The position numbers and the translations under genes were made by a program. A stretch of DNA of 37,755 bases from a virus: positions 1-37,755 of the IMG/VR virus record IMGVR_UViG_3300003691_000030; one strand, written 5' to 3'. Below the pieces are notes generated by a model that searched no databases, had not been told where the DNA came from, and was given only the letters and a program-made list of their open reading frames with translations. The number at the start of each line of letters is the position of its first letter. The first letter of the stretch is position 1. Below are positions 2,625-37,755 of the stretch, in pieces.

Positions 2625-3029
2625 ATGCAACGACAACCCTTATCAATAGAGGATCTGAGAAGTCTTATCAACAAGGGTGAGGCTAAGGATCCTCTTGTCT
2701 TTTTAGAATCTATAATGAACGGGCAAGATCCCCGTAGACTTTCGTCCATTTATGAACTTGTAATGGAGATAGACAACTTCACTGATGGGGATTTATCTCA
2801 AGGTGACTGGGCTGAGATTGTAGACCATGTTAGTGACCGTTTCCATTTCCATACCGTTAGTCTTAATGAATCTATAACAGCTAGTAAGACCTTAGCAGAA
2901 TACCTACACGCCAAACGCAAACATGTAGAGATAAAAGACAACAGCTCAGGATCAGGTAGCGTACAGGATAACCCTTTAACAGAAGAGGAAATAGAGCTGT
3001 TTAAGGAGAAGTTTAATGACGACTTCTGA
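2625..3029 (+). CDS. Putative small terminase subunit
   Basis: Assigned mainly from position directly upstream of, and overlapping, the large terminase gene (14 bases). The 134-residue protein is acidic and mostly helical in appearance, ending in EEEIELFKEKFNDDF, with a Ser/Gly linker (SSGSGSVQD, about residues 107-115) before that tail, which may contact TerL. No clear helix-turn-helix is visible by eye. In phages of this type the small subunit recognises packaging sites and regulates TerL. The start lacks any Shine-Dalgarno sequence; with a promoter 9 bases upstream the message may be leaderless. An alternative is an unrelated TerL accessory gene. Confidence 0.55.
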   Translation: MQRQPLSIEDLRSLINKGEAKDPLVFLESIMNGQDPRRLSSIYELVMEIDNFTDGDLSQGDWAEIVDHVSDRFHFHTVSLNESITASKTLAEYLHAKRKHVEIKDNSSGSGSVQDNPLTEEEIELFKEKFNDDF

Positions 3030-3882
3030 TATTATACTAGACGAAGAACCTCAATGGACTTACAACGAAAAGCGTATGCTCAAGTACATGTTAGAGCAAG
3101 ACGGTATGCAATTCATGAGGTACTTCTTTAAAATACGTGAAGACAGTAAGATGATCTGCAATTGGCACCATTATGTTATCGAATATGTGCTACAAGCGGT
3201 GTATGATCTAAAAGTAACTCGTCTAATAATCAATATAGCTCCTGGTTATACTAAAACAGAACAAGCCGTACTCAATTTTATATGTAGAGGTTTGGCTCTG
3301 AATCCTCGTAGTAAGTATATCCACACCTCATATGCCGGTAAACTCGTAAACACTAACTCTGCTAAAATAAGACAAACAATAAAGAGTGCTGAGTATCAAG
3401 AACTTTGGCCTATGAAGATACGTATAGACGCTGACTCAAAAGGCGAGTGGTATACTGATCAAGGTGGCGGTATATTAGCTGCTGCTGCTGGAGGACAGAT
3501 CACAGGGTTCCGAGCAGGTCGAATGGACGAGGGTATATTCACAGGAGCGTTTGTAAACGACGACCCTGTTAAGCCTAAAGATGCTTATTCTATAGTCAAA
3601 AGATCTACAGTCAATAACGATTTTAACAATACTATGCGTTCTCGCTTAGCCATAGAGTCTGTACCTATGGTTAATATTATGCAGAGAATACATGAGGATG
3701 ATCTTAGCGGGTATCTCTTAAAGGGAGGGTCGGGTGATATGTGGCATCACCTGACAATACCTACGAATTTAACTGAAGAAGTACTGAACAAGCCTTATTC
3801 TGAGGATTACACCCACGGTATACCTATAAGTATTAATGGTATTCTTAAGGCTATGCACACGGGTCAGAGCTATGATTTTTAG
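3016..3882 (+). CDS. Large terminase, N-terminal ATPase part (frame broken at 3880)
   Basis: This is the packaging motor ATPase. INIAPGYTKTEQAV (residues 72-85) is the TerL Walker A and FVNDDPVKP is the Walker B region; QRIHEDDLSGYLL and HHLTIPTN are typical of the family of TerL proteins with the RNase H-fold C-terminus. Reading in this frame stops at TAG 3880-3882 after GQSYDF, but the protein obviously continues in the +1 frame (next entry): together they make about 533 residues, the usual TerL length. The break is either a +1 programmed frameshift at TTT-TAG, a real mutation, or an indel in the T5 run at 3876-3880. Confidence 0.88.
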   Translation: MTTSDIILDEEPQWTYNEKRMLKYMLEQDGMQFMRYFFKIREDSKMICNWHHYVIEYVLQAVYDLKVTRLIINIAPGYTKTEQAVLNFICRGLALNPRSKYIHTSYAGKLVNTNSAKIRQTIKSAEYQELWPMKIRIDADSKGEWYTDQGGGILAAAAGGQITGFRAGRMDEGIFTGAFVNDDPVKPKDAYSIVKRSTVNNDFNNTMRSRLAIESVPMVNIMQRIHEDDLSGYLLKGGSGDMWHHLTIPTNLTEEVLNKPYSEDYTHGIPISINGILKAMHTGQSYDF

Positions 3883-4615
3883 TTTAGATGCCCTTAACCA
3901 TATCCCCCAACAAATAATCCCTGGGGACCCTCTGTGGGAGTTTAAACACACTACAGAACAGTTAAAAGTTATCGAAACAGGGGATCCCTACACCTATTCA
4001 TCTCAATATCAGCAAGACCCTAGTCCGTTAGGCGGAGGTATGTTTAAGGATAAATACTGGAAATATTATGACGTCTTGCCTCCTGATATAATGTTATATC
4101 GGATTTATGGAGATACAGCTCAGAAGACCAAAGAGCGCAACGACTACAGTGTATTTCAGATGTGGGGTAAATCACCTACGATGGGTATCTTCTTAATAGA
4201 TCAGTTCCGAGGTAAATGGGAAGCTCCGGAATTGGAATCTAAATTAGTAGAGTTTTGGAATAAACATAAACCCACTCAGTATAAACCATTTGGCGCTCAA
4301 GTAGTTAAGATAGAAGATAAGAGTTCTGGTAGCTCCTTAATACAATCTATTAAGAAAGACTATATGATACCTGTAGAGGCTATACAACGTAACACTGATA
4401 AAGTATTAAGAGCTATGGGTGTAGTTAAGTACTTTTCTACAGGTTATATCCACTTGCCCAAGGATACGGATTGGGTTCACGATTACAAAGAGGAGTTCCG
4501 TAAATTTACTCCTCTAATGACACACTCGCATGATGACCAAATAGACCCCACAATGGATGCGGTTGAGGATCTAATTGTATTTGAAGACATGCTTTATAGC
4601 GATAACTCCATGTAA
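3836..4615 (+). CDS. Large terminase, C-terminal nuclease part (+1 frame)
   Basis: This frame is open from 3830 and carries the rest of TerL: DPLWEFKHT and DPYTYSSQYQQDPSP link the domains, and the RNase H-like nuclease has its acidic residues in IYGDTAQKTKERNDYSV, VKIEDKSSGSSLIQS and HSHDDQIDPTMDA. It cuts concatemers at the portal. The ATG at 3836 has no ribosome site, and the first residues in this frame do not look like TerL, so separate translation is unlikely; joining the frames at 3877-3881 gives ...SYDF-SLDALNHIP... in continuity. Treat this as the second half of one protein with the entry before it. Confidence 0.85.
   Translation: MVFLRLCTRVRAMIFSLDALNHIPQQIIPGDPLWEFKHTTEQLKVIETGDPYTYSSQYQQDPSPLGGGMFKDKYWKYYDVLPPDIMLYRIYGDTAQKTKERNDYSVFQMWGKSPTMGIFLIDQFRGKWEAPELESKLVEFWNKHKPTQYKPFGAQVVKIEDKSSGSSLIQSIKKDYMIPVEAIQRNTDKVLRAMGVVKYFSTGYIHLPKDTDWVHDYKEEFRKFTPLMTHSHDDQIDPTMDAVEDLIVFEDMLYSDNSM
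3876..3882 (+). other. Apparent +1 frameshift site in TerL (TTTTTAG)
   Basis: Zero-frame codons are GAT TTT TAG; slipping one base forward on the T5 run gives GAT-T-TTT AGT TTA, which continues the terminase. A phenylalanine codon that can re-pair with UUU one base on, next to a stop codon in the A site, is the arrangement of the RF2-type +1 frameshift. No strong internal Shine-Dalgarno sequence like that of prfB is seen upstream, so a homopolymer sequencing error is equally possible. Confidence 0.5.
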
Positions 4616-5591: not shown

Positions 5592-7013
5592 ATGAGCGGT
5601 AATCATGAAGAGGCTAGGATTTTAGATGAAGGGGTTTCTGTTAAAGACGGATTAGAAAATCTCGTAGCTCAGTTAGGAACAGAGCAGGATAAACGTGCTC
5701 ATTCTAAATTTGTAAATAATAAGCGACTTTCCCTCAAAGGTAATGAGGAAGAGTTAAACGCTATGTACCGTACAGATTGGTTAGCTGGTAAGGTAGTCGA
5801 TATTATACCGGATGACATGACTCGTGAATGGCGTGAGTTTACTGGGGAGATAGAACCGGATACAGTTAAAATACTAGTAGACGAAGAAGATCGTTTAGAC
5901 TTATCTGGATCGTTTAACCTAGCTCATAAATGGGCTAGGTTATATGGTACTGCTTATATTGTCATGTCTATAGATGATGGACAAACTCCGGATAAACCTG
6001 TAAATCTAGATAACATTAAGGAAGGGTCTCTTCGTCATATTAAGGTTGTAGACAGGCATCGTATAAACAATTCAGAAGTAACACCTATTCAGGATCCCTT
6101 AAATTCTAATTTCGGTATGCCTGAATTTTATCGTATAGTAGACACTGCGGTTAAAATTCACCATAGTCGTGTATTGCGTTTCGATGGAGTAATGTTACCC
6201 TTCAACGAATTCCAAAGAAATGATTACAATTCTGATTCCGTATTAAGTCGTTTATATGAAGCTCTTATTAATCTTAATACTACGGCTACCGGAGCCTCTA
6301 GTATGGTATTTGAGACTAATGTAGATATCATGAAGGTTAAGGGGTTAATGGGCTACTTACAAACATCTGATGGAGAAGCTTTACTTCGTAAACGGTTCAC
6401 CTTAGCCGGTATGATGAAGAGCTTCAACAATATGATGTTGTTGGATACTGAAGAAGAATTCGACAGTAAAACTAATACGTTTTCTGGATTACCTGATTTA
6501 CTAGATCGCTTCGGTTTGTTCTTAAGTGCTGCTAGTGATATACCAGCTACTCGGTTATTAGGATCATCGGCTAGTGGTTTAAATGCTACTGGAGAGGGAG
6601 ATCTTAAGAATTACTATGATACAGTACGTTCAGCTCAGAAGAAAGAATATAAACCTAAGCTCGATTATTTTGATGAGATTATGATTAGAAGTTTAGGTTT
6701 ACCTGAAGACACCGATATAACTTATGAGTTTAATTCTTTATTCCAGATGACCCCTAAGGAATTATCTGATATGCAGTTTGTCAACGCTCAACGCGATGCT
6801 CTATATCTAGATAGAGGTGTAGTGACAGAAGAAATAGTAGCTAAGGAATTAAAGCAAGATAATACTTATACTAATATCACAGATGACTATATTGAAGAGC
6901 TAGAGGAATTTGAAAATGACTTTAACACCAATACCAACGATCCTCAACTTGGAAATGAACAGGAAGCACAGGAGGGAAAAGAAGAAAAGGATCCGACCGA
7001 TAAGGACTCCTAA
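5592..7013 (+). CDS. Portal protein (DUF1073 type)
   Basis: Forms the dodecameric ring at the head vertex through which DNA is packaged and where tail connectors dock. DUF1073 features are visible along the whole length: YRTDWLAGKVVDIIPDDMTR (about 59-78), HKWARLYGTAYIVM, IHHSRVLRFDG (about 196-206), and the diagnostic TRLLGSSASGLNATGEGD followed by NYYD (about 320-343). The C-terminal 50 residues are acidic and low-complexity (ELEEFENDFNTNTND, EGKEEKDPTDKDS). 473 residues is a normal length. GAGGAAAG precedes the ATG. The next gene starts inside its 3' end. Some database DUF1073 entries carry an anti-CBASS Acb1 label; nothing in this protein shows an Acb1 domain. Confidence 0.92.
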   Translation: MSGNHEEARILDEGVSVKDGLENLVAQLGTEQDKRAHSKFVNNKRLSLKGNEEELNAMYRTDWLAGKVVDIIPDDMTREWREFTGEIEPDTVKILVDEEDRLDLSGSFNLAHKWARLYGTAYIVMSIDDGQTPDKPVNLDNIKEGSLRHIKVVDRHRINNSEVTPIQDPLNSNFGMPEFYRIVDTAVKIHHSRVLRFDGVMLPFNEFQRNDYNSDSVLSRLYEALINLNTTATGASSMVFETNVDIMKVKGLMGYLQTSDGEALLRKRFTLAGMMKSFNNMMLLDTEEEFDSKTNTFSGLPDLLDRFGLFLSAASDIPATRLLGSSASGLNATGEGDLKNYYDTVRSAQKKEYKPKLDYFDEIMIRSLGLPEDTDITYEFNSLFQMTPKELSDMQFVNAQRDALYLDRGVVTEEIVAKELKQDNTYTNITDDYIEELEEFENDFNTNTNDPQLGNEQEAQEGKEEKDPTDKDS

Positions 7014-7734
7014 GTCTCCTGAGGTAAGATATCGGAATACGTTAAGATCATTAAGTGCTAAGTTACGCCATGACGTCAACACTCAGATTATACCATTGCT
7101 TAAACAGTTTCAATCTGAGTATATTAATGACGCCTATGCTAAAACACTAGAACAAGCTTTCGATCGATTACGTAAGTCTTATTCAGATATTAATACTAAC
7201 GCTCGTATAGTGTCTGAATCTTTTGTGACTAACTCTGAGCAGGTTAATAAACAAAGATTCTATTCATCAATGGAAGACGCAGTTGGTGTTAACCTACAAA
7301 GTATTATCCAGAACGAAGGACTTGAAGATATATTAGTAGCTACTACTCGTGAAAATGTCGGTCTTATTCGTTCTATACCTGAGGAATATTTTAAGAAGAT
7401 AGAAAGTATTGTCTTTACGGGTACTACTCAGGGTAACGCTGCTGGATCGATGATTAAACAAATCCAGAAAACAGGTAAGGTGACAGACAACCGAGCTAAA
7501 CTTATAGCACGTGATCAAAGCTCTAAATTAAACTCGGCATTAACCCAACAACGAGCTCAGAATTTAGGTGTTGAAGAGTACGTCTGGAGAACAGCAGGAG
7601 ACGAGAGAGTACGTGAATCACATCGTACTAAGAACGGTAAGGTATTTAGATGGGACGACCCTCCTAAGGACACTGGGCATCCTGGGCAGGACATTCAGTG
7701 TAGGTGTGTAGCTCAGCCGATAATTAAGCTGTAA
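6916..7734 (+). CDS. MuF-like minor head morphogenesis protein
   Basis: A minor head protein that in Mu/SPP1-like systems binds portal and enters the procapsid. The MuF C-terminal signature is clear: RAKLIARDQSSKLNSALTQQ, YVWRTAGDERVRESHRTKNG, and HPGQDIQCRCVAQP at the end (residues about 195-270), with the conserved cysteine pair CRC. The N-terminal third is basic and helical. It overlaps the portal gene by about 98 bases. ATG 6916 has GAGGA eight bases upstream; TTG 6910 and ATG 6955 are alternative starts, so the N-terminus is uncertain. Confidence 0.88.
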   Translation: MTLTPIPTILNLEMNRKHRREKKKRIRPIRTPKSPEVRYRNTLRSLSAKLRHDVNTQIIPLLKQFQSEYINDAYAKTLEQAFDRLRKSYSDINTNARIVSESFVTNSEQVNKQRFYSSMEDAVGVNLQSIIQNEGLEDILVATTRENVGLIRSIPEEYFKKIESIVFTGTTQGNAAGSMIKQIQKTGKVTDNRAKLIARDQSSKLNSALTQQRAQNLGVEEYVWRTAGDERVRESHRTKNGKVFRWDDPPKDTGHPGQDIQCRCVAQPIIKL

Positions 7735-7802: not shown

Positions 7803-8210
7803 ATGACTTTAGCTTACGAAGTAGGATTAAGAAATACAAGACTGGACGATATAACCGCAAAAATTGACGGAGGCCCAGGAGCAGGTACGATTAAGATTTA
7901 CGACGGTACTCGTCCTGCCACGGGAGCGGCTATTACTACTGAAGTACTAGGTGCTACTTTGACTATGAGTGATCCGTCATTCCCAGCAGCTGGTTCTGGG
8001 ACTATGGGAGCTAGTGCTATAACAGGTGATGCTTCTGCTGACGCTACTATCACTGCTTCTTGGTTCCGTGTGCAAGATTCCACAGGAGCATTTGTAATGG
8101 ACGGAGACGTAGGTACTTCCGGGTCTGATTTGAACTTGAATACTGTATCTCTAGTAGCTGGTGTACAAGTGGATATTACTAGTTTTGTCATTAATGCTGG
8201 TAATGCATAA
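7803..8210 (+). CDS. Small virion-associated protein (135 aa)
   Basis: Belongs to a family often found near phage head genes; the recognisable parts are [52 protein letters not shown] and [18 protein letters not shown]. These suggest an all-beta fold of the decoration or head-fibre kind, with no cysteines and no transmembrane segment. GCGAGGAAT lies upstream of the ATG. It immediately precedes the APS kinase gene (2-base gap), so its message is shared with the sulfation cassette. Virion location is inferred from context; exact role unknown. Confidence 0.6.
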
Positions 8211-8212
8211 TT

Positions 8213-8710
8213 GTGATTACTGTTTGGTTTACAGGTATATCAGGTAGCGGTAAGACTACTATAGCTGACGCAGTAGTATTAAAACTACCTCAGTGTTATA
8301 GACTTGACGGTGACGATTTACGTACAGGTCTTAATTCTGATTTGGGATTTTCTTATAAGGATCGTAAAGAGAATATCCGTAGAGCAGGGGAAGTAGCTAA
8401 GTTATTTTCTTATCACGGTATAGTTCTAGCTAGTTTTATCAGTCCTTACGCTGAACATAGAAAATATGTGAGAGATATACATGAAAGCTCGAATATAAAG
8501 TTCATAGAAGTATTTGTAGATTGCCCATTAAAAGTAGCTGAAGACAGGGACCCCAAGGGGCTTTATAATAAGGTTAGATCCAATAGGATTAATAACTTTA
8601 CAGCTATAGACGATCCATACGAAACCCCGATCTCCCCTGATATACATTTACGAACAGATCGTATAACTGTAAAAGAAGCGGTCCAAGAGGTAATAGATGC
8701 GATTCTTTAG
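8213..8710 (+). CDS. cysC: Adenylylsulfate (APS) kinase
   Basis: Phosphorylates APS with ATP to give PAPS, the universal sulfate donor. Nearly all family motifs are intact: P-loop GISGSGKTT (8-16), [12 protein letters not shown] (30-41), [14 protein letters not shown] (51-64), [11 protein letters not shown] (73-83, with the serine of the ISP motif), [13 protein letters not shown] (110-122) and [12 protein letters not shown] (128-139). At 165 residues it is the bare kinase domain, without ATP sulfurylase, so host APS is needed. GTG start; no strong ribosome site, suggesting coupling to the gene ending two bases earlier. The 3' end overlaps the sulfotransferase gene by 14 bases. A metabolic gene in the middle of head genes is unusual. 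Confidence 0.93.
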
Positions 8711-9344
8711 AGTATCTGAAGATACATGTATAGTAGGTATCCCTAAGGCTGGCTCTTTATCCATGGAAGAAGCCATAAATTTCAATGGGGGTCAGTTTAT
8801 AAATGTACAAGAATCTCTTATTATCCCTAATAGGATTCTTTTTCTCAGAGATTGGTGGGAACGTTTAAACTCAGCATTTACTTTTTTCTGGTTACTTGAG
8901 AAAAACGGAACTATGCAGACCGAGTATCTACCTCAGTATATTTTAGGTACTGCTATCCATAAATCTCCAAAACCAACCCAACAAGCATGGATGGATTTTA
9001 TTGATCATGTGTTGGATGCCCCAAAGGAATTTAATCATGATCATTGGTTACCCCAGACCGAATTAGCAACTCATGAAGGTATATTTTTACCTACTATAGT
9101 TCATAAATTCGAGGATATAGATGCTGTTGATCCTGAACACCCTGATTTTAATAACGACGAAATCCCACTAGAATCTAAGAGTAGATACTGGAGCAGGTAC
9201 AGTCCTGGTAGGTTACCTGAGAAAAATAGAAATAGTAATCATCTACCGATAACTCAATATCGTCAAGACGATTTAGTTGCTCGTTTTATAAATGATAGTA
9301 CTATGCACTCTAAAATCAATGGGTCTTACACCGGAGGGTTATAA
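8697..9344 (+). CDS. PAPS-dependent sulfotransferase
   Basis: Predicted to move sulfate from PAPS to a hydroxyl or amine acceptor. The 5'-phosphosulfate loop is GIPKAGSLS (14-22), close to the PKxGTTS form, and the 3'-phosphate site is [13 protein letters not shown] (49-61), with Arg51 and Ser59 spaced as in known sulfotransferases. HWLPQTEL (116-123) resembles the HWxPQ element of Golgi-type Sulfotransfer_2 proteins. 215 residues is short but complete-looking. Its start overlaps the APS kinase and its stop overlaps the next start (TAATG), so donor-making enzyme, transferase and the repeat protein downstream are translationally linked. Acceptor unknown: virion glycan or protein, host surface polysaccharide or another molecule. 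Confidence 0.75.
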
Positions 9345-10741
9345 TGGCTATTGTTATAACCGATAGGGGTTTTCATAGTCGTAATATAAATACGAATCAA
9401 TTGAGTGCTCCTAGCTCCCCGGCAACAGCTTATACTCCGGCTGCTAATTCGGTAATGCTGGCTATTGTACAAAATGATTTAAACGCTACCGACCCCGATA
9501 TACCTCAAGGTCATGACGGAGGTAGCTCTTGGGTCAAACTAGGGAACTCCCAAACAGCTAATAATAAGACTTCAGTTTTATACGGAGCCCATGTCGGTTC
9601 TAGCCCTAGTTCGGGTTTTGTTACTGTAGATGAAGCTACTGCTTCGACTATGGGTTTGCAAGTATTAGAAGTCGAAGGTTTGGATGATACAGGTACTGTA
9701 GCCGATTCATTCGCTCAGATAGCTGATGGTACATTTTATGGTACTTTACCAACCCTCGCTCTAACAGGAGCAGCTACTCAGACCATTGGATTTTGGTGTT
9801 GTGATCAACCTACAATCACTCCTGATGATACTCCTATTGGTTCTCAACTATCATATCGATATGGCGGAAGCCATATGCATCGAGATCAGAATCCAACTGG
9901 TAACGCTGCTCCGGGGGCAACTGGTTCTTTTGCTACATTTTGGAGAAACCATGCGGTAGAAGTAGTTGAAGCCAGTAGCGGTATAACGGGCACTATTAAC
10001 GAGACTTCTGATAATGATACTTCGGTAGCCTCGGGTGTTGTTACAGTTATAGGTTCTATTGCTGAGACTTCTGATGACGATATATCAGTAGCTTCCGGGT
10101 TAGTTAGGGCTATAGGTAGTTTATCTGAGACCTCTGATAACGATACTTCGATAGCTTCCGGATTAGTTAGAATTGTAGGATCCTTAGTTGAGATTTCTGA
10201 TAATGATACTTCAGTAGCATCGGGAACAGTAACAGTAATAGGGACGTTAAGTGAAACTTCCGACGACGATACTATGATAGGTATTGGAGTGGTTGGAGGA
10301 GCAATAACAGGTACTATCAACGAGACTTCTGATGACGATACATCAGTAGCTTCGGGTGTTATTACAGTTATAGGTAATCTCACAGAAACTTCTGATGACG
10401 ACACTATGGTAGGCGTAGGTATAGTTGGAGGTTTTGTAACAGGTACTATCAACGAGACCTCGGATAATGATACTTTATTCGCTACTGGTCTTATTAGAGT
10501 TATAGGTCTTATTAATGAAATATCAGATAACGACACCTTAATAGCAAGCGGAACAGTGTCTCAAAACATAACAGGTACTATTAATGAGACTTCTGAAGAC
10601 GATATTATGATCGGTACCGGAACAGTCGGAGGTTTACCAAGTGAGAACGATATCGGGTTCTCAGCTCCATTTGCTTTTGATGATATCGGGTTCTCAGCTC
10701 CATTTACTTTTAGTGATATAAATTTAACAGGTGATCTATGA
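9344..10741 (+). CDS. Repeat-containing virion protein (465 aa)
   Basis: Probably a head fibre or surface protein. Residues 1-210 form one domain ([48 protein letters not shown]) resembling phage lectin- or carbohydrate-binding-type modules in overall pattern. Residues about 216-430 hold ten copies of a 21-23-residue unit of consensus GTINETSDNDTSVASGVVTVI. The C-terminus has two copies of DIGFSAPF. The repeats are rich in Asp, Ser and Thr, with short beta-strand segments, and may form an extended, calcium-binding stalk. Translation is coupled to the sulfotransferase gene through TAATG. Whether the repeats are modified by it is not known. Confidence 0.6.
   Translation: MAIVITDRGFHSRNINTNQLSAPSSPATAYTPAANSVMLAIVQNDLNATDPDIPQGHDGGSSWVKLGNSQTANNKTSVLYGAHVGSSPSSGFVTVDEATASTMGLQVLEVEGLDDTGTVADSFAQIADGTFYGTLPTLALTGAATQTIGFWCCDQPTITPDDTPIGSQLSYRYGGSHMHRDQNPTGNAAPGATGSFATFWRNHAVEVVEASSGITGTINETSDNDTSVASGVVTVIGSIAETSDDDISVASGLVRAIGSLSETSDNDTSIASGLVRIVGSLVEISDNDTSVASGTVTVIGTLSETSDDDTMIGIGVVGGAITGTINETSDDDTSVASGVITVIGNLTETSDDDTMVGVGIVGGFVTGTINETSDNDTLFATGLIRVIGLINEISDNDTLIASGTVSQNITGTINETSEDDIMIGTGTVGGLPSENDIGFSAPFAFDDIGFSAPFTFSDINLTGDL
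9989..10633 (+). repeat. Ten degenerate coding repeats of 63-69 bp
   Basis: The unit encodes G-[TSN]-[IL]-x-E-[TI]-S-[DE]-[ND]-D-[TI] followed by about ten hydrophobic, Ser- or Gly-rich residues. Units ending in VVGGxxT (69 bp) are intermixed with units ending in xVTVI (63 bp). The DNA copies differ by many silent changes, so the array is old or kept variable rather than recently expanded. Confidence 0.8.
10649..10705 (+). repeat. Recent direct repeat at the 3' end of the repeat gene
   Basis: A 24-base block is identical at 10649-10672 and 10682-10705 (33-base spacing), encoding DIGFSAPF twice. Identity at DNA level points to a recent duplication, unlike the older array before it. Confidence 0.75.
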
Positions 10742-11058
10742 TAAACGGGGAATATGGGAACACATTAAGGATATCCGCTGAGGAAGATATTAGCGGTAAT
10801 ACTAATAGTATAGAATTAAGAAGCCCTTCTCCTTATGTCTCTAGTAGGGTTCTAACCGCAGCCGACGGAGTAGTCCTAGGCGTAACAACTAAGACAGTAG
10901 GTGGGATATTATTTACTGCTAATGAATATGTAGAGTATCCGATATTGCAAGGTGATATTAATATCGCCGGTAATTGGAACGTATGTTTATTTTCATTAAC
11001 TCCAGGTGGTGAGAATAAAATACTAACTAATCTTACTTTCCCTGTTGGTTCATGTTAA
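10738..11058 (+). CDS. Small virion-associated protein (106 aa)
   Basis: Member of a family of short beta-rich proteins common beside phage head-fibre genes: start MINGEYGNTLRISAEEDISG, middle LTAADGVVLGVTT, then ANEYVEYPILQGDINIAGNW. The pattern (nearly immunoglobulin-like strands) resembles domains in fibre-associated proteins, although the BppU-like comparison is only by eye. It overlaps the repeat protein gene by ATGA and so belongs to the same late translation unit. A 99-base AT-rich gap follows, in which I see no clear terminator. Confidence 0.5.
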   Translation: MINGEYGNTLRISAEEDISGNTNSIELRSPSPYVSSRVLTAADGVVLGVTTKTVGGILFTANEYVEYPILQGDINIAGNWNVCLFSLTPGGENKILTNLTFPVGSC

Positions 11059-11157: not shown

Positions 11158-12306
11158 ATGTTTTTAGCCGATAGACTGAAAATTACCACAGAACGTGAAT
11201 ATACTGATGAGGGGTTTCTTAAAGTCCCAGCTCGTATATCTCGTATCGGTATTCAAAATTATTTAGCTGTTGAGATGGGTCTTAAGGATAGAGACCCAGC
11301 TGATGTTATTAGAGTTTATAGACCTGAAGATGAAGTGTTTTCTGATATATCTTTAAGCTCGTTTTCTAACAAGCCCGTAACAAATAATCATCCTTCCGAA
11401 TTGGTCAATCCTACTAACGCTAGTAGTGTAAGTGTAGGTTTCTCAGGACCAGAAGTAACTCGGGATGGGATGTTCGCCAAAACAACCCTTCATGTCACTG
11501 ACGCAGAAGCCATTGCGAATATAGAGAGCGGAAAGGTTGAGCTTTCTAATGGTTATACCGCTGACATAGAATGGGTATCAGGAGTTACTCCGGAGGGTGA
11601 GCAGTTCGACGCCATTCAGAGAAACATTAAAGGCAATCACATTGCCATTGTAGAACGTGGTCGAGCTGGAGCTGCTTGCAGAGTGGCCGACAATTTACCC
11701 GAAACAGGAGATAAAGTCACTATGGCTAAAATCACCATTGATGGGGTCGACTTTGAAGTGCCTGATCAAGCCGCTCAAGCAGTTGGTAAACTGCAAGCAC
11801 GCCTGACTGATGCTGAAAAAGAAACCCTAAGCGAAGCCGAAAAGCTAAAAGCTAAAGAAGACGAAGCGGAAGAAGAGGCTAAGAAAGCCAAGAAATCCGA
11901 AGACTCTTTACAAGCTAAGCTTGACGATGCTAATTCAAAAATCCCATCTTCCGAAACTCTAGATAAATTAGTTGCTGAGCGAACTGCTGTAGTAGATAGC
12001 ATTCTTAAAGTAGCTCCTGATCTAGAATGGCAAGGTAAGGACACAGATACACTTCGTAAAGAAGCAGTAGCTATTAATTGTCCTAATGTTCAATTGGATT
12101 CAATGTCTACTGATTATATCAATGCTCGTTTTGATATGTTGGTTGAATCTATTGAAACTAACAGTCAACAACAACTGGACGAAGCCTTTAGCAACCAAGT
12201 TAAAGACAAAGACAGTAAAGTTGAAGACATTCGTCCGGCTAGTGTTATCGCTCGTGAAAAGATGATGATAGATAGTCAAAATGCTTGGAAAGGAGGTGCT
12301 AAATAA
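11158..12306 (+). CDS. DUF2213 prohead protease fused to scaffold
   Basis: Combines capsid maturation protease and internal scaffold. The N-terminal 190 residues match DUF2213: MFLADRLKITTEREYTDEG, GFLKVPARISRIGIQNY, SNKPVTNNHP (about 76-85), and ESGKVELSNGYTADI with the strongly conserved GNHIAIVERGRAGAA (about 159-173), whose His and following residues are thought to form part of the active site. Residues 200-265 are a Glu/Lys/Ala-rich coiled coil (AEKLKAKEDEAEEEAKKAKK), the scaffold part. AAGGA lies upstream of ATG 11158. The next gene overlaps by TAATG, and the major capsid gene follows shortly. Confidence 0.88.
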   Translation: MFLADRLKITTEREYTDEGFLKVPARISRIGIQNYLAVEMGLKDRDPADVIRVYRPEDEVFSDISLSSFSNKPVTNNHPSELVNPTNASSVSVGFSGPEVTRDGMFAKTTLHVTDAEAIANIESGKVELSNGYTADIEWVSGVTPEGEQFDAIQRNIKGNHIAIVERGRAGAACRVADNLPETGDKVTMAKITIDGVDFEVPDQAAQAVGKLQARLTDAEKETLSEAEKLKAKEDEAEEEAKKAKKSEDSLQAKLDDANSKIPSSETLDKLVAERTAVVDSILKVAPDLEWQGKDTDTLRKEAVAINCPNVQLDSMSTDYINARFDMLVESIETNSQQQLDEAFSNQVKDKDSKVEDIRPASVIAREKMMIDSQNAWKGGAK

Positions 12307-33394: not shown

Positions 33395-33574
33395 TTATAA
33401 GGTTCTATTGTAGATAGCGTTACGTTCGCTTTTAGACAACCTAAAGTTATCCTTACGTTCGTTCTTAGATACTTTGGTTATTTCGCCCCCTTTATCAAAG
33501 AGCTCTTCTATTTGCTTATTTATAGTTTCGTGTTCGTCATTCTTATGCTGTAAGTGGGAATTTGAATCACTCAT
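33395..33574 (-). CDS. Small basic protein of unknown function (59 aa)
   Basis: A small gene that fills the gap between the polymerase and dCTP deaminase genes. It begins at an ATG overlapping the deaminase stop (TAATG at 33574) and ends one base before the polymerase start. The product begins MSDSNSHLQHKND and continues NKQIEELFDKGGEITKVSKN, ending in a basic RNAIYNRTL. It is helical and charged, without cysteines or membrane segments. Tight packing on both sides is the best evidence that it is a real gene. Confidence 0.65.
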   Translation of the reverse strand: MSDSNSHLQHKNDEHETINKQIEELFDKGGEITKVSKNERKDNFRLSKSERNAIYNRTL

Positions 33575-34113
33575 TATCGCACACCTTTACTCTTAGTTAC
33601 AGTGTTTTGATTATTGTACTGCCCTTTATTAGCATAACTATGAAAATCAGGAACAGGTTCACATTTCCAGAACACCATCTGACCAATTTTCATCCTAGGT
33701 TTTATTACTAGTACATGGTGTTCAGTAACGTTCTTTAATTCCAAAGTTAGTTTAGAATTGGTCCAACCTGGGTCACACCAACCGGCTAATAAATGTTGTA
33801 AACCAGAACGAGCCAATGAGCTTTTTAACTTATACTCAGCTGCGATATGATTAGGTAAGTTGAATGTCTCTTGACTACTAGCTAATATGAACTGACCAGG
33901 ATATAAGCGATACCCATTAGTCATGTCTAGTTTTGTAAAATCCAAAGACCCCTTATTAGCTAAATCAACAGCTCCTGTAGAGCTTGTCTTTTCGATAAGT
34001 ATTTCACTACCTAAAGTAATATCAATACTAGCACCACTAATATTGGCAATAGGAGCGTCGATAATTCCTCGTTCGACGAACTTTAATAATGAGTTGTAAG
34101 ATACTAATGACAT
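33574..34113 (-). CDS. dcd: dCTP deaminase
   Basis: Converts dCTP to dUTP, feeding dUMP production. The trimeric dUTPase-fold signature is full: ISGASIDITLGSEILI (25-40), KLKSSLARSGLQHLLAGWCD (95-114), PGWTNSKLTLELKNVT (115-130, with catalytic Glu125) and RMKIGQMVF; SYANKGQYNNQNTVTKSKG closes the active site. 179 residues. GAGG lies before the start. Whether it also has dUTPase activity cannot be read by eye. In this operon it probably supplies deoxyuridylate to the thymidylate synthase superfamily enzyme upstream. Confidence 0.92.
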   Translation of the reverse strand: MSLVSYNSLLKFVERGIIDAPIANISGASIDITLGSEILIEKTSSTGAVDLANKGSLDFTKLDMTNGYRLYPGQFILASSQETFNLPNHIAAEYKLKSSLARSGLQHLLAGWCDPGWTNSKLTLELKNVTEHHVLVIKPRMKIGQMVFWKCEPVPDFHSYANKGQYNNQNTVTKSKGVR

Positions 34114-34114
34114 A

Positions 34115-34507
34115 TTAACCTCGTATATAATTTTTATCAGGGTCTACGTAATTTGGAGTCGGTCCTGCTTCTGCTTCGTCAATCAAATCTTGGATTAGTT
34201 TGGTAGCCTCAGCAAAACAACATACTCCTATTAGACGTACAATCTTAGCGTCTTCAGGGTTTAATTGCTCACAGAAATACTTAAGAGGTCCGAGATTAGT
34301 TTGGAAGTCAGTACGAACCTCTTTAGCTTTTTCTATGTAATGTAGAGATTTACGAAGATCCTCAACTCCGTTCTTATCCCTCCAACGGCTAGGATACTTA
34401 GTAGCGCAACCAAGAAGATAAGGCATTTTGGTATCTACTACCATATCCCAATGTTGATATTGTTTCTTATAATGTTCACCGCCTACTTGTTTATCATTGG
34501 CTCCCAT
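34115..34507 (-). CDS. DUF3310 protein
   Basis: A family common in phage nucleotide-metabolism clusters, function unsettled. The DUF3310 motif is clear: QVGGEHYKKQYQHWDMVVDT (7-26), then YLLGCATKYPSRWRDKNGVE and DLRKSLHYIEKAKEV (about 30-64). The remaining part (CEQLNPEDAKIVRLIGVCCF) is less conserved. Start overlaps the HD gene stop (TAATG) and has GGAGGAG before it. Sometimes labelled nucleotide kinase in databases without firm evidence. Confidence 0.82.
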   Translation of the reverse strand: MGANDKQVGGEHYKKQYQHWDMVVDTKMPYLLGCATKYPSRWRDKNGVEDLRKSLHYIEKAKEVRTDFQTNLGPLKYFCEQLNPEDAKIVRLIGVCCFAEATKLIQDLIDEAEAGPTPNYVDPDKNYIRG

Positions 34508-35001
34508 TACAGCTCCTCCATTTCACGGATTAATATTTCGTAGAAACTATATGCTATCTCGTAATCAGGACAAAAGTTATCAGCGAAGAACTTACGCCAC
34601 TTGCGGAAAGGTCGTTTGGCATTAACATTACCCATTCTTACCTGATGGATGCAGAACCACATACCCTCTAAAGTGTCTCCCATCTTGAGGATTAGCTTCT
34701 CTTCATCCTTCAGACTAAAATAAACACCGTTATCGATTTCCCATGCTTTTTCTATATCACGTAATAAGAGAGCTAAATCAGAATGTTCTTTCTTAACAGG
34801 AAAAGGGACATCACCTGTTAAATATTCAGCTGCATCATGGGTCATTGCCGCAAGCAATAAGTCTTTAGAGCAGTCGGGGTAAATATGCTGAACTATTAAA
34901 GCTACTCCCCACTGATGTTCAGCGTTCTTTTGCTTATCAATCCCCGCATGACTATGGAAACGAACCACATCACCGCTATGTAATATATTACGAATATTCA
35001 T
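34507..35001 (-). CDS. HD-domain nucleotide phosphohydrolase (YfbR-like)
   Basis: Predicted to remove phosphate from deoxynucleotides. Metal-binding HD residues: KNAEHQWGVALI (His29), AAMTHDAAEYLTGDVPFPVK (His55, Asp56, Glu59) and LKMGDTLEGMWF (Asp109), with the EYLTGD-PxPxK pattern of YfbR-like enzymes. 164 residues. It lies between the thymidylate synthase superfamily gene and DUF3310. Such an enzyme in phages with altered bases can deplete the normal nucleotide (as DatZ does for dATP); here that could be dTMP/dTTP, which is only inference. Confidence 0.82.
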   Translation of the reverse strand: MNIRNILHSGDVVRFHSHAGIDKQKNAEHQWGVALIVQHIYPDCSKDLLLAAMTHDAAEYLTGDVPFPVKKEHSDLALLLRDIEKAWEIDNGVYFSLKDEEKLILKMGDTLEGMWFCIHQVRMGNVNAKRPFRKWRKFFADNFCPDYEIAYSFYEILIREMEEL

Positions 35002-36020
35002 TTAGCTCTACCCTCCGCTCGGTTAAATAACCAATCCTCACAGGCTATTCGCCAATCGTCAGCTTTTATCTTATGAGTATATCCTATAGCTTTTTTAGGA
35101 CCGTGTTGCTTATGAACTAGATAAGTACATAAAACAGGTATGATTAGATTATTGAAATAATCAGAGCGCCAGCATTCCATTTCACCTAATTCTTCAAGAC
35201 CATAATCGTCATAGCAGTTAAAGAACATAGTTAAATCGTAATCAATAAGTTTTATCTCGGAGTTATCCATTAATACTTGTCTGTTGGGATAATTTGCTTC
35301 TGGGTAGGGAATAGTACCCCTCAACCGATCCCAGACTTCACCTCCTGGTCCTCCAGTATAAACATGGTAGGAGTTACTAACTTGGGTATAGTCGCCCATT
35401 GGTATTTTTAGATGAGCTGCTACGTATTCCTGGAGCATACTAAACTGGACTACATTAGCTCCGTATGCTCCCCAGATCATATCATTGGAACGATTGTAGA
35501 CTGTCATATGTAATTCCATATTACGGATACGAAACACAATAGACATGTTACAGGCTTTATCCTTGGTTGGTTTCTCCAAGTCTTGAGTATCCCATATTTG
35601 GCATACAGCTTGACGAGACAGAGGATCATGTTTTAAAATATCAATAACTGATTCTAACTGATCCATATTACAGTTACCGTTATCATTAAAATTGTGTTTT
35701 AATCGATAACCATAAGGAGCATTAAAAGTAAGACCGTCGTCGCTATAATCGACCATACGCTTGTTAAATTCGGTTAAGAACATAACGTCATCACGACCTG
35801 CTAAGATCCATATAGCTTCCATTAGATGGAAGAAAGGATTAGCATCGCGAACTTTATTAATAAGTACTCGTTCCCATGGACGAGCATAAACAGTAGAGAC
35901 AGGTTCGGGGATCTCTAATGTAACACCTCCTCTACTAGGGGTGAATTCTCCTGATTGTAACATTAATCGAATACCTTCAGTTAAAGCTCCGTTTACATTT
36001 CTTACATTTATAACTTTCAT
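34998..36020 (-). CDS. Thymidylate synthase superfamily enzyme (TS or dUMP hydroxymethylase)
   Basis: Adds a one-carbon unit to C5 of dUMP. The catalytic Cys is Cys157 in TKDKACNMSIVF, the Arg loop is DPLSRQAV (Arg136), and the pyrimidine pocket RSNDMIWGAYGANVVQFSML keeps Asn189, the residue that selects dUMP over dCMP; SNSYHVY gives the His219/Tyr221 pair. At 340 residues it is a divergent phage type with EAIWILAGRDDVMFL near residues 68-82. Whether it makes dTMP or 5-hydroxymethyl-dUMP cannot be settled by eye; the adjacent hypermodification-type gene favours the latter. Overlaps the HD gene by ATGA. Confidence 0.85.
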   Translation of the reverse strand: MKVINVRNVNGALTEGIRLMLQSGEFTPSRGGVTLEIPEPVSTVYARPWERVLINKVRDANPFFHLMEAIWILAGRDDVMFLTEFNKRMVDYSDDGLTFNAPYGYRLKHNFNDNGNCNMDQLESVIDILKHDPLSRQAVCQIWDTQDLEKPTKDKACNMSIVFRIRNMELHMTVYNRSNDMIWGAYGANVVQFSMLQEYVAAHLKIPMGDYTQVSNSYHVYTGGPGGEVWDRLRGTIPYPEANYPNRQVLMDNSEIKLIDYDLTMFFNCYDDYGLEELGEMECWRSDYFNNLIIPVLCTYLVHKQHGPKKAIGYTHKIKADDWRIACEDWLFNRAEGRAK

Positions 36021-36022
36021 TG

Positions 36023-36892
36023 TTAACCCTTCCCGTTGTATTTACGACAAAGAAAACTTTTGTCATTTTGTATTCGTAAGTATTTATCAAATTCACAAAG
36101 ACTATGTTCTATATCCCTCATTTCTAATTTTGGAAAAGCAGCGAGGAACATACCTTCTAAAACCGACAGTAAGTATTGCATATCTTTGTTGGACCGACAA
36201 GGTTTTATTTTCGTATCTACTGGTCTTTCGTATAGACGATTTAAACCCCTAATAGCTCCTGGTCCAGCATGTGCCCACGTCATGATATCAGGTGCGTTTC
36301 TCAGATAACGAGTATGTCTCATATCAGTTATTATTTCATAAGATAAGAACCCGCTAATACCAGGATTATGATGAGCGAACAGAATGAACACTTGCTCTAA
36401 TGTCCATTGTTCTTTATCTAGAGCCATACTTATAGTTTCTCGTCTTTCCCATAGTTTATTTAAGCACTCGTAAACTGTATAGTGATTCTTGGACATTTTA
36501 AGAGAGCTAGTGGATAATGAATAAGCTCCGCTGTATATAGGGAGTTCCAATAATTTACGTTGCTCCAAAATACCTAGTACTGCTTTAGCGTCCCAATCAA
36601 CTAATAAGTAATCTAGTTGATGCAGTGTAACAGGTAAGTTAATACGACGAGCCACTGCTAAAGCGAACCACAAATATCGATGATACTCCCAACGTCCCCT
36701 AATATTTTGACGTATCCAAGCAGTGGTACTATCTAACTCACGATACACATTACAGAACTTATACTCTTGGAGTATGGTGTTATCGGTCCAAGGCTTGGGA
36801 GACCCTACTAATTTATGCAAGTATATTTCGTGACGAGCTTTCATGAAATAAAACAACCTACAGACATTTATATCTTTAATCTTAGAAGTCAT
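36023..36892 (-). CDS. Thymine hypermodification protein, helical (HMUDK/AGPT-pyrophosphorylase-like) family
   Basis: Recognised by the very conserved helical family tied to 5-hydroxymethyluracil-derived bases in phage DNA: PWTDNTILQEYKFCNVYREL (34-53), DSTTAWIRQNIRGRW, NPGISGFLSYEIITDMRHTR (176-195, a helix-hairpin-helix-like stretch resembling DNA glycosylases), TWAHAGPGAIRGLNRLYERP (205-224) and LEMRDIEHSLCEFDKYLRI (256-274). This segment is found in 5-hmdU DNA kinases and in AGPT pyrophosphorylases; there is no P-loop here, so it is not a complete kinase and is more likely the DNA-acting or transferase-type member. GGAG seven bases before the ATG; overlaps the glycosyltransferase gene by 11 bases. 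Confidence 0.75.
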   Translation of the reverse strand: MTSKIKDINVCRLFYFMKARHEIYLHKLVGSPKPWTDNTILQEYKFCNVYRELDSTTAWIRQNIRGRWEYHRYLWFALAVARRINLPVTLHQLDYLLVDWDAKAVLGILEQRKLLELPIYSGAYSLSTSSLKMSKNHYTVYECLNKLWERRETISMALDKEQWTLEQVFILFAHHNPGISGFLSYEIITDMRHTRYLRNAPDIMTWAHAGPGAIRGLNRLYERPVDTKIKPCRSNKDMQYLLSVLEGMFLAAFPKLEMRDIEHSLCEFDKYLRIQNDKSFLCRKYNGKG

Positions 36893-37755
36893 CGAAATGC
36901 TCCATCTTGCGAAGTGAATCGGATATTAACTTAGCAGTTGGTTCACCTAGTACACCAGCGTCACCAAAAGCAAATTCTAATATCGCTTTAGCTACTTCCT
37001 GTTTATCGAATGCTCCCATTAATTCCATATTGTTATTCTGAATTTGCTGTAGTAGATCTTCATCTGCTATAGATTTGTCTATCAAAGCTCCGTAGTTCTC
37101 GGGGGATATATCGTAAGGTATTTCTATATAATTAACACCCGCTGTAAAAAGTAAGCTATTGTTCATAGCCAAATCGGTACACATTGGTACACAACCAAGA
37201 GCCATTGCTTCAACCATAACACGATTGAAGTGGCTACCTAATTCTGAATATTTCTTAGACCAACTGGGATCTATTAATAGTTTCATTTCTTTGAGCATGT
37301 AATCACGATCCTCAGTAGTCACATACCCTTTAAAATCCATACCAGCTTTAATAGCTTCGTCCCATATACGTGTTCCATCTTCGGTACGGTATTCAGGTTT
37401 ACACTTAGTGGTAGAAGTCATATAGTGGTACTCAATACCTCCTCCACAAATAATCTTATCATTCCAATAAGCCATATGAGGTATAGCACGTATGAGATCA
37501 TCAACTCGTTTCCAACGTTTGAATGTTTGTAAAGATACAAATCCATCCTCACGCTCATCTATAGGTCTAATATAGGAGAACTCATCGTGCTCATGAGGAT
37601 TAGGTATAAAGGTACGACGGACAGGTAGTATCTCACAACTATTAAATGAAGCATCATGGACACATACTACGCCGTCTAGCTTATCGCATACTTGTAATAT
37701 ATGAGGGTAAAGCTTTTGCATATTACCGTCATGGACAATAGCGATTTGTTTAGCA
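36882..37755 (-). CDS. GT-B (GT4-like) glycosyltransferase, 5' end outside window
   Basis: The frame continues without a stop to the window edge: eleven codons (AKQIAIVHDGN) precede the first visible ATG (37721) and read as protein, so the true start lies beyond. The group-1 transferase fold is seen in FVSLQTFKRWKRVDDLIRAI (the linker and nucleotide-binding start), KIICGGG, GYVTTEDRDYMLKEMKLLID and HFNRVMVEAMALGCVPMCTD, the EAMAxGxPxxxxD-type sugar-nucleotide site. It may attach a sugar to modified DNA bases or to a surface glycan. The first placement is suggested by its overlap with the thymine-modification gene. Confidence 0.82.
   Translation of the reverse strand, partial: AKQIAIVHDGNMQKLYPHILQVCDKLDGVVCVHDASFNSCEILPVRRTFIPNPHEHDEFSYIRPIDEREDGFVSLQTFKRWKRVDDLIRAIPHMAYWNDKIICGGGIEYHYMTSTTKCKPEYRTEDGTRIWDEAIKAGMDFKGYVTTEDRDYMLKEMKLLIDPSWSKKYSELGSHFNRVMVEAMALGCVPMCTDLAMNNSLLFTAGVNYIEIPYDISPENYGALIDKSIADEDLLQQIQNNNMELMGAFDKQEVAKAILEFAFGDAGVLGEPTAKLISDSLRKMEHFDDF

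Follow-up and report, generated by a model that had tools for sequence, protein, structure and literature searches.

The window, the whole 37.8-kb stretch of an IMG/VR virus record that was analysed here, belongs to a contractile-tailed phage which encodes a tail sheath, a baseplate and a tape measure. Five tightly packed genes (the cassette, 7803-11058) are located between the genes for a minor head protein and a head maturation protease (Table 1), with the portal and the minor head protein upstream, and the protease and the major capsid protein downstream. The initial annotation had placed an adenosine phosphosulfate (APS) kinase and a PAPS sulfotransferase inside the head genes; this location proved correct, and both open reading frames were recovered with the motifs that it had quoted for them. 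The junctions of the cassette genes are, in order, +2, -14, -1 and -4 nt. Thus, the kinase and sulfotransferase genes overlap by 14 nt, and the stop codon of the latter overlaps the ATG of the following gene by 1 nt (TAATG). Given these gap and overlap sizes, translational coupling across the cassette genes is likely. Promoter-like sites barely exceeded background and terminator-like sites were found at background level; since no such signal stands out, the probable co-transcription of the cassette was deduced from gene spacing.

Elsewhere in the window (3016-4615, + strand), the terminase large subunit is encoded by two overlapping ORFs that match successive parts of PHROG 38. This split is retained in many relatives, so that a sequencing error is unlikely.

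Table 1. Genes of the cassette and its two flanks in the window.
Feature	Position	Strand	Characteristics
Minor head protein, left flank	6910..7734	+	Conserved in 26 relatives, with the protease gene directly next in most
Virion structural protein-like gene, first of the inserted block	7803..8210	+	PHROG 3758 'virion structural protein' (2.4e-29)
Predicted APS kinase (cysC), PAPS from APS and ATP	8213..8710	+	165 aa; GTG start; PF01583 and TIGR00455 matches
Predicted divergent PAPS-dependent sulfotransferase, Sulfotransfer_2-like	8697..9344	+	215 aa; K17; R51, S59; HWLPQ
Putative virion surface/fibre protein	9344..10741	+	Residues 1-215 form a conserved N-terminal domain, followed by repeats of ~21 residues
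Small protein, last of the inserted block, possible adaptor	10738..11058	+	106 aa; homologous to a 104-aa gene of L118
Head maturation protease (DUF2213), right flank	11158..12306	+	PF09979 (9.9e-53); PHROG 530 (1.4e-95)

The cassette as an accessory insertion

Thirty viral loci were taken by relatedness of their head protease; many of these records are fragments, and 26 contain both flanking genes. None of the five cassette genes was present in any of these 26 relatives, where the gap from flank to flank measured 71-127 bp in 20 cases, 168 bp in one and 416 bp in one distant relative. In the same way, no match to APS kinase or Sulfotransfer_2 was obtained in the 30 records, many of them fragmentary. 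Close relatives thus lack the cassette, which is an accessory insertion. The initial annotation had named as evidence against its claim the loss of the transferase from relatives that keep the kinase in place; no such case occurred, the relatives having neither gene.

The slot between the minor head protein and the protease holds other genes in other phages. A close relative (L004, 302-3499) carries a different 3.4-kb insert with ORFs of 876, 90 and 106 aa, and a gene judged by eye to be lysozyme-like occupies the same position in L008. Since different inserts are found at one position, the slot accepts exchangeable late genes. Just before it, a long insertion that looks intein-like by eye interrupts the minor head protein of L021 (3286-5070). 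The G+C content of the cassette (40%) hardly differs from that of the window (38%), and composition therefore shows no sign of recent transfer.

The predicted APS kinase and sulfotransferase

The product of 8213-8710 matched the Pfam family PF01583 at 6e-56 (189 bits, cut-off 21.1), the apsK equivalog model TIGR00455 of NCBIfam at 3.9e-62 (209 bits, cut-off 138.7) and the APS kinases of the PDB at about 1e-50 (PAPSS1, 1.4e-50). In an alignment that also contained human PAPSS1 and four further CysC proteins, the P-loop, the ISP serine and the RDPKGLY motif were invariant or nearly so. This match is far beyond chance and, judged by its sequence, the protein is a bona fide APS kinase, with full-domain scores above curated cut-offs and all motifs of the complete enzyme that had been claimed initially. 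It resembles bacterial CysC and NodQ (TIGR00455) in its full-length domain, in the P-loop, FISP and RDPKGLY motifs and in passing the curated cut-off, but it differs from them in being phage-encoded and located within head genes, where no adjoining ATP sulfurylase or PAPS reductase was found. Single-protein scans of viral contigs returned no relatives of the window kinase or transferase, and alignment-based queries were needed to find them.

The sulfotransferase was identified through intermediates. On its own, the product of 8697-9344 gave no significant match in Pfam, where it stayed below the gathering score of PF03567, nor in PHROGs, NCBIfam, the PDB, phages or plasmids. Because a direct PF03567 match is lacking, we term it Sulfotransfer_2-like and do not file it as a member of that family. 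Its homologue in a second phage contig, L037 (phmmer, 3.7e-30), scored 20.9 bits against PF03567, just below the cut-off of 22, and the homologue in a third one, L118, scored 24.0 bits, above this cut-off. A profile made from these three transferases found, at 5.9e-6, a protein of L052 which is a clear Sulfotransfer_2 (PF03567, 1.8e-24). Thirteen phage sulfotransferases were aligned; of the residues of the PAPS site, R51 and S59 (3' element) were invariant and K17 (5' loop) was present in 12 sequences, and the profile of this alignment matched heparan sulfate 2-O-sulfotransferase in the PDB at 1e-5. By homology via these intermediates to Sulfotransfer_2, together with the conserved K17, R51 and S59, the protein is classed as a divergent PAPS sulfotransferase, in agreement with the initial annotation. 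The window-type transferases share with Sulfotransfer_2 (PF03567), a family of carbohydrate sulfotransferases, and with PHROG 3347 ('Galactose-3-O-sulfotransferase') of phages the lysine of the 5' loop, R-x7-S and HWxPQ; unlike them, they are of ~190-215 aa, divergent, not directly recognised and coupled to a surface-protein gene. Scans of genome contigs with the transferase profiles returned no relatives, and a candidate adjoining a kinase in L039 was discarded as a chance-level match.

An AlphaFold2 model of 8697-9344, computed from the 13-sulfotransferase alignment, reached a pLDDT of 81. In the VIA comparison of this model, sulfotransferases filled the top 24 rows at Z 5.2-7.2, with PAP-bound heparan 3-O-sulfotransferases (Z up to 7.2) at the head, and the first unrelated fold followed at Z 3.6. 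Foldseek retrieved viral sulfotransferases at a probability of 1.00; against the PDB sulfotransferases also headed the list, although not significantly (best E 0.6). The predicted fold thus agrees with that of a sulfotransferase, as supportive and not independent evidence, since the input alignment contained only putative sulfotransferases.

Recurrence of the sulfotransferase with a surface-type protein

The 118-kb contig L037 has a terminase and a portal-like gene of its own; it encodes the kinase, the transferase and the repeat protein in the same order as the window, and its CysC is 57% identical to the window CysC. L118, a 42-kb contig, was found by a search with the N-terminal domain of 9344-10741 alone; in this contig a homologous transferase gene is located directly upstream of the surface-protein gene, with a 1-nt overlap, and no kinase was found. 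The repeat proteins of the window and L037 are 39% identical over the first 222 aligned residues (3e-39), and the N-terminal domain (~215 aa) of the window protein matched that of L118 at 1e-5 (6e-11 in a domain search). The capsid and portal proteins of the window have no detectable version in L037 or L118.

The pair of transferase and surface protein was encountered at these three loci only, and in each of them the sulfotransferase gene directly precedes the gene with the N-terminal domain. As read from sequence and gene order, the constant unit is the predicted sulfotransferase plus the N-terminal domain of a repeat-rich putative fibre/surface protein, with likely translational coupling in 3/3. 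Its presence in the window, L037 and L118, which have no common capsid or portal, suggests that the pair is transferred as one piece from phage to unrelated phage, with variation in the kinase and in the genes that flank it. The kinase is probably an optional part of the module, since L118 has the transferase and the surface protein but no kinase in the contig. Recurrence in two unrelated phages backs the tie to a repeat-rich surface-type protein that the initial annotation had drawn. Its notion of a kinase-transferase cassette held in that the pair is real, but the kinase is missing from the L118 contig and the whole block is accessory.

The AlphaFold2 model of 9344-10741 was poor (pLDDT 40). 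Its late position, its repeats (a 63-bp tandem repeat at 9996-10401) and its neighbours, which include a Gp77 fibre-tail adaptor in L037, suggest that it belongs to the virion surface or to a fibre. Two tyrosines, Y80 and Y132, are invariant across the three N-terminal domains and are, with several conserved Ser/Thr of this domain, candidate sulfation sites; tyrosine is absent from the repeat region.

The outer genes of the block are less constant. The small protein encoded at 10738-11058 is homologous to the 104-aa gene product of the same module in L118 (E 5e-6). At the equivalent position, L037 encodes the Gp77 adaptor (PF23148, 2e-12), to which the small protein has no detectable similarity. 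The product of 7803-8210 has no similarity to that of the same-position gene in L037 and no counterpart in the head-gene relatives. In the phage represented by L037 and L116, a large insertion, intein-like by eye, is found inside the terminase (L116, 11833-14214).

Proposed mechanism and alternative readings

In the mechanism that we propose, host ATP sulfurylase would provide APS, the phage kinase would convert it to PAPS, and the transferase would pass the sulfo group from PAPS to the product of 9344-10741, whose conserved N-terminal domain, or an attached glycan, would receive it. The kinase would secure the supply of PAPS and could be dispensed with where the host supply suffices, as may be the case in L118. 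The block would then be a mobile set of late genes serving to sulfate a structural component of the phage. We have high confidence in the chemistry of the two enzymes, APS kinase and PAPS sulfotransferase, and see an even chance that the neighbouring surface protein is the acceptor. For the reading as a whole, with phage-made PAPS used to sulfate the phage's surface protein or a glycan attached to it, we estimate a probability of about 0.5; it presumes that both enzymes are catalytically active, that the surface protein is present in the virion and that the phage benefits from the modification. With PAPS production, PAPS consumption and a single defined protein partner brought together, this compact recurring unit offers a testable answer on what phage sulfotransferases do, and points to sulfation as a way of modifying virions.

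The usual acceptors of Sulfotransfer_2 enzymes are carbohydrates, while the block contains no glycosyltransferase, which speaks against the surface protein as acceptor. This neighbour could be linked to the transferase for another reason, e.g., if both were cargo of one fibre-exchange module. The main rival, possible though rather unlikely, is accordingly that the pair sulfates a surface or exported polysaccharide of the host and alters the envelope, for instance to block superinfection, the surface protein being a genetic hitch-hiker or a binder of the sulfated glycan. A glycosyltransferase group 1 gene does lie at the window edge (36885-37721), but on the other strand and near DNA-modification genes. 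Moreover, a single protein domain accompanies the transferase in all three phages, which share neither capsid nor portal, and the place of the transferase among late morphogenesis genes would be late for an envelope change.

Sulfation of hypermodified phage DNA by the transferase is improbable. The same phage has a 5-hmdU DNA kinase domain (HMUDK, PF18723, 3.2e-43), phrog_5131, a thymidylate-synthase-like protein and a glycosyltransferase, and phage modification systems based on sulfotransferases are mentioned in PMC10829341. However, HMUDK is retained by the closest relatives, L003 and L014, which have neither cysC nor the transferase, and is missing from both L037 and L118, where the transferase is present; the DNA-modification genes, too, belong to an opposite-strand module. 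That module (33574-37721, - strand) likely encodes a thymidine hypermodification pathway, with a dCTP deaminase, the thymidylate-synthase-like protein, the helical domain of the 5-hmdU DNA kinase and the glycosyltransferase at the edge.

In the available text of PMC10914622 and PMC9529941, viral cysC is assigned to assimilatory sulfate reduction. That the window kinase serves this host pathway next to an unrelated or inactive neighbour seems improbable as well: the transferase retains K17, R51 and S59, and no PAPS reductase (cysH) was seen among the window proteins scanned, which are part of the ORFs of a record that may be a fragment. We also surveyed 50 viral contigs with cysC (among L036-L095), which are best matches to the window kinase and not a random sample, and some of which look bacterial. 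PAPS reductase (PF01507 above cut-off) was present in 4 of the 50, against 27 with a match to Sulfotransfer_1, 2 or 3. In 17 contigs the sulfotransferase was located within 3 kb of cysC, where about 3.2 would be expected under random placement; strand agreement of the two genes is uninformative in phages. When the kinases were grouped at 90% identity, a sulfotransferase accompanied 23 of 38 groups and was within 3 kb in 13 of 38. These counts question the label of assimilatory sulfate reduction for phage cysC.

Sulfotransferases as a class act on many substrates, but sulfation of a small host metabolite or signalling molecule, along the lines of NodH-type systems and with no structural target, is very improbable in view of the late-gene location and the constant surface-protein partner.

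Tentatively, sulfation of the phage's own surface protein can be extended to a module for protein sulfation that is passed between phages. Its dedicated sulfotransferase would modify the conserved N-terminal domain of the co-encoded fibre/surface protein, its APS kinase would guarantee PAPS, and viral cysC would, more generally, serve mostly sulfation and not assimilation. If true, this would give, to our knowledge, the first bacteriophage virion protein that is sulfated. Should the pattern be general, surveys in which viral cysC is counted among the sulfur-cycle genes would need revision.

The initial annotation knew of no described phage system of this kind. In the literature searched this holds for the unit but not for its enzymes: phage cysC (PMC10914622) and phage sulfotransferases (PMC10580990) are each known, and the available text of PMC10580990 calls the role of the latter unclear. 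As far as the accessible parts of these papers and of PMC9529941 go, the same enzyme classes are reported in phage genomes but treated separately, with no coupling to a virion-type protein. A literature search, mostly without subscription papers, returned no description of the kinase-transferase-surface protein unit. Bacteria, too, have cysC-sulfotransferase pairs, located in clusters for surface polysaccharides (e.g., OQ572406, L034), with a kinase and a transferase adjoining for PAPS supply and use; that cluster differs in its glycan-synthesis surroundings, opposite strands and another type of sulfotransferase (by eye).

Several other kinase matches were set aside. The top kinase by blastp bit score (L036) has a bacterial-looking gene content and no sulfotransferase nearby. 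Five matches came from a phage collection; one is a 462-kb uncultured phage with no recognised transferase adjoining the kinase, another is a labelled Salmonella genome record, and three are bacterial-looking by gene content. In L052 (5695-6867), as judged by eye, the APS kinase has a membrane-protein-like segment fused to its N-terminus and a phosphatase-like one to its C-terminus, and a Sulfotransfer_2 gene follows directly after it.
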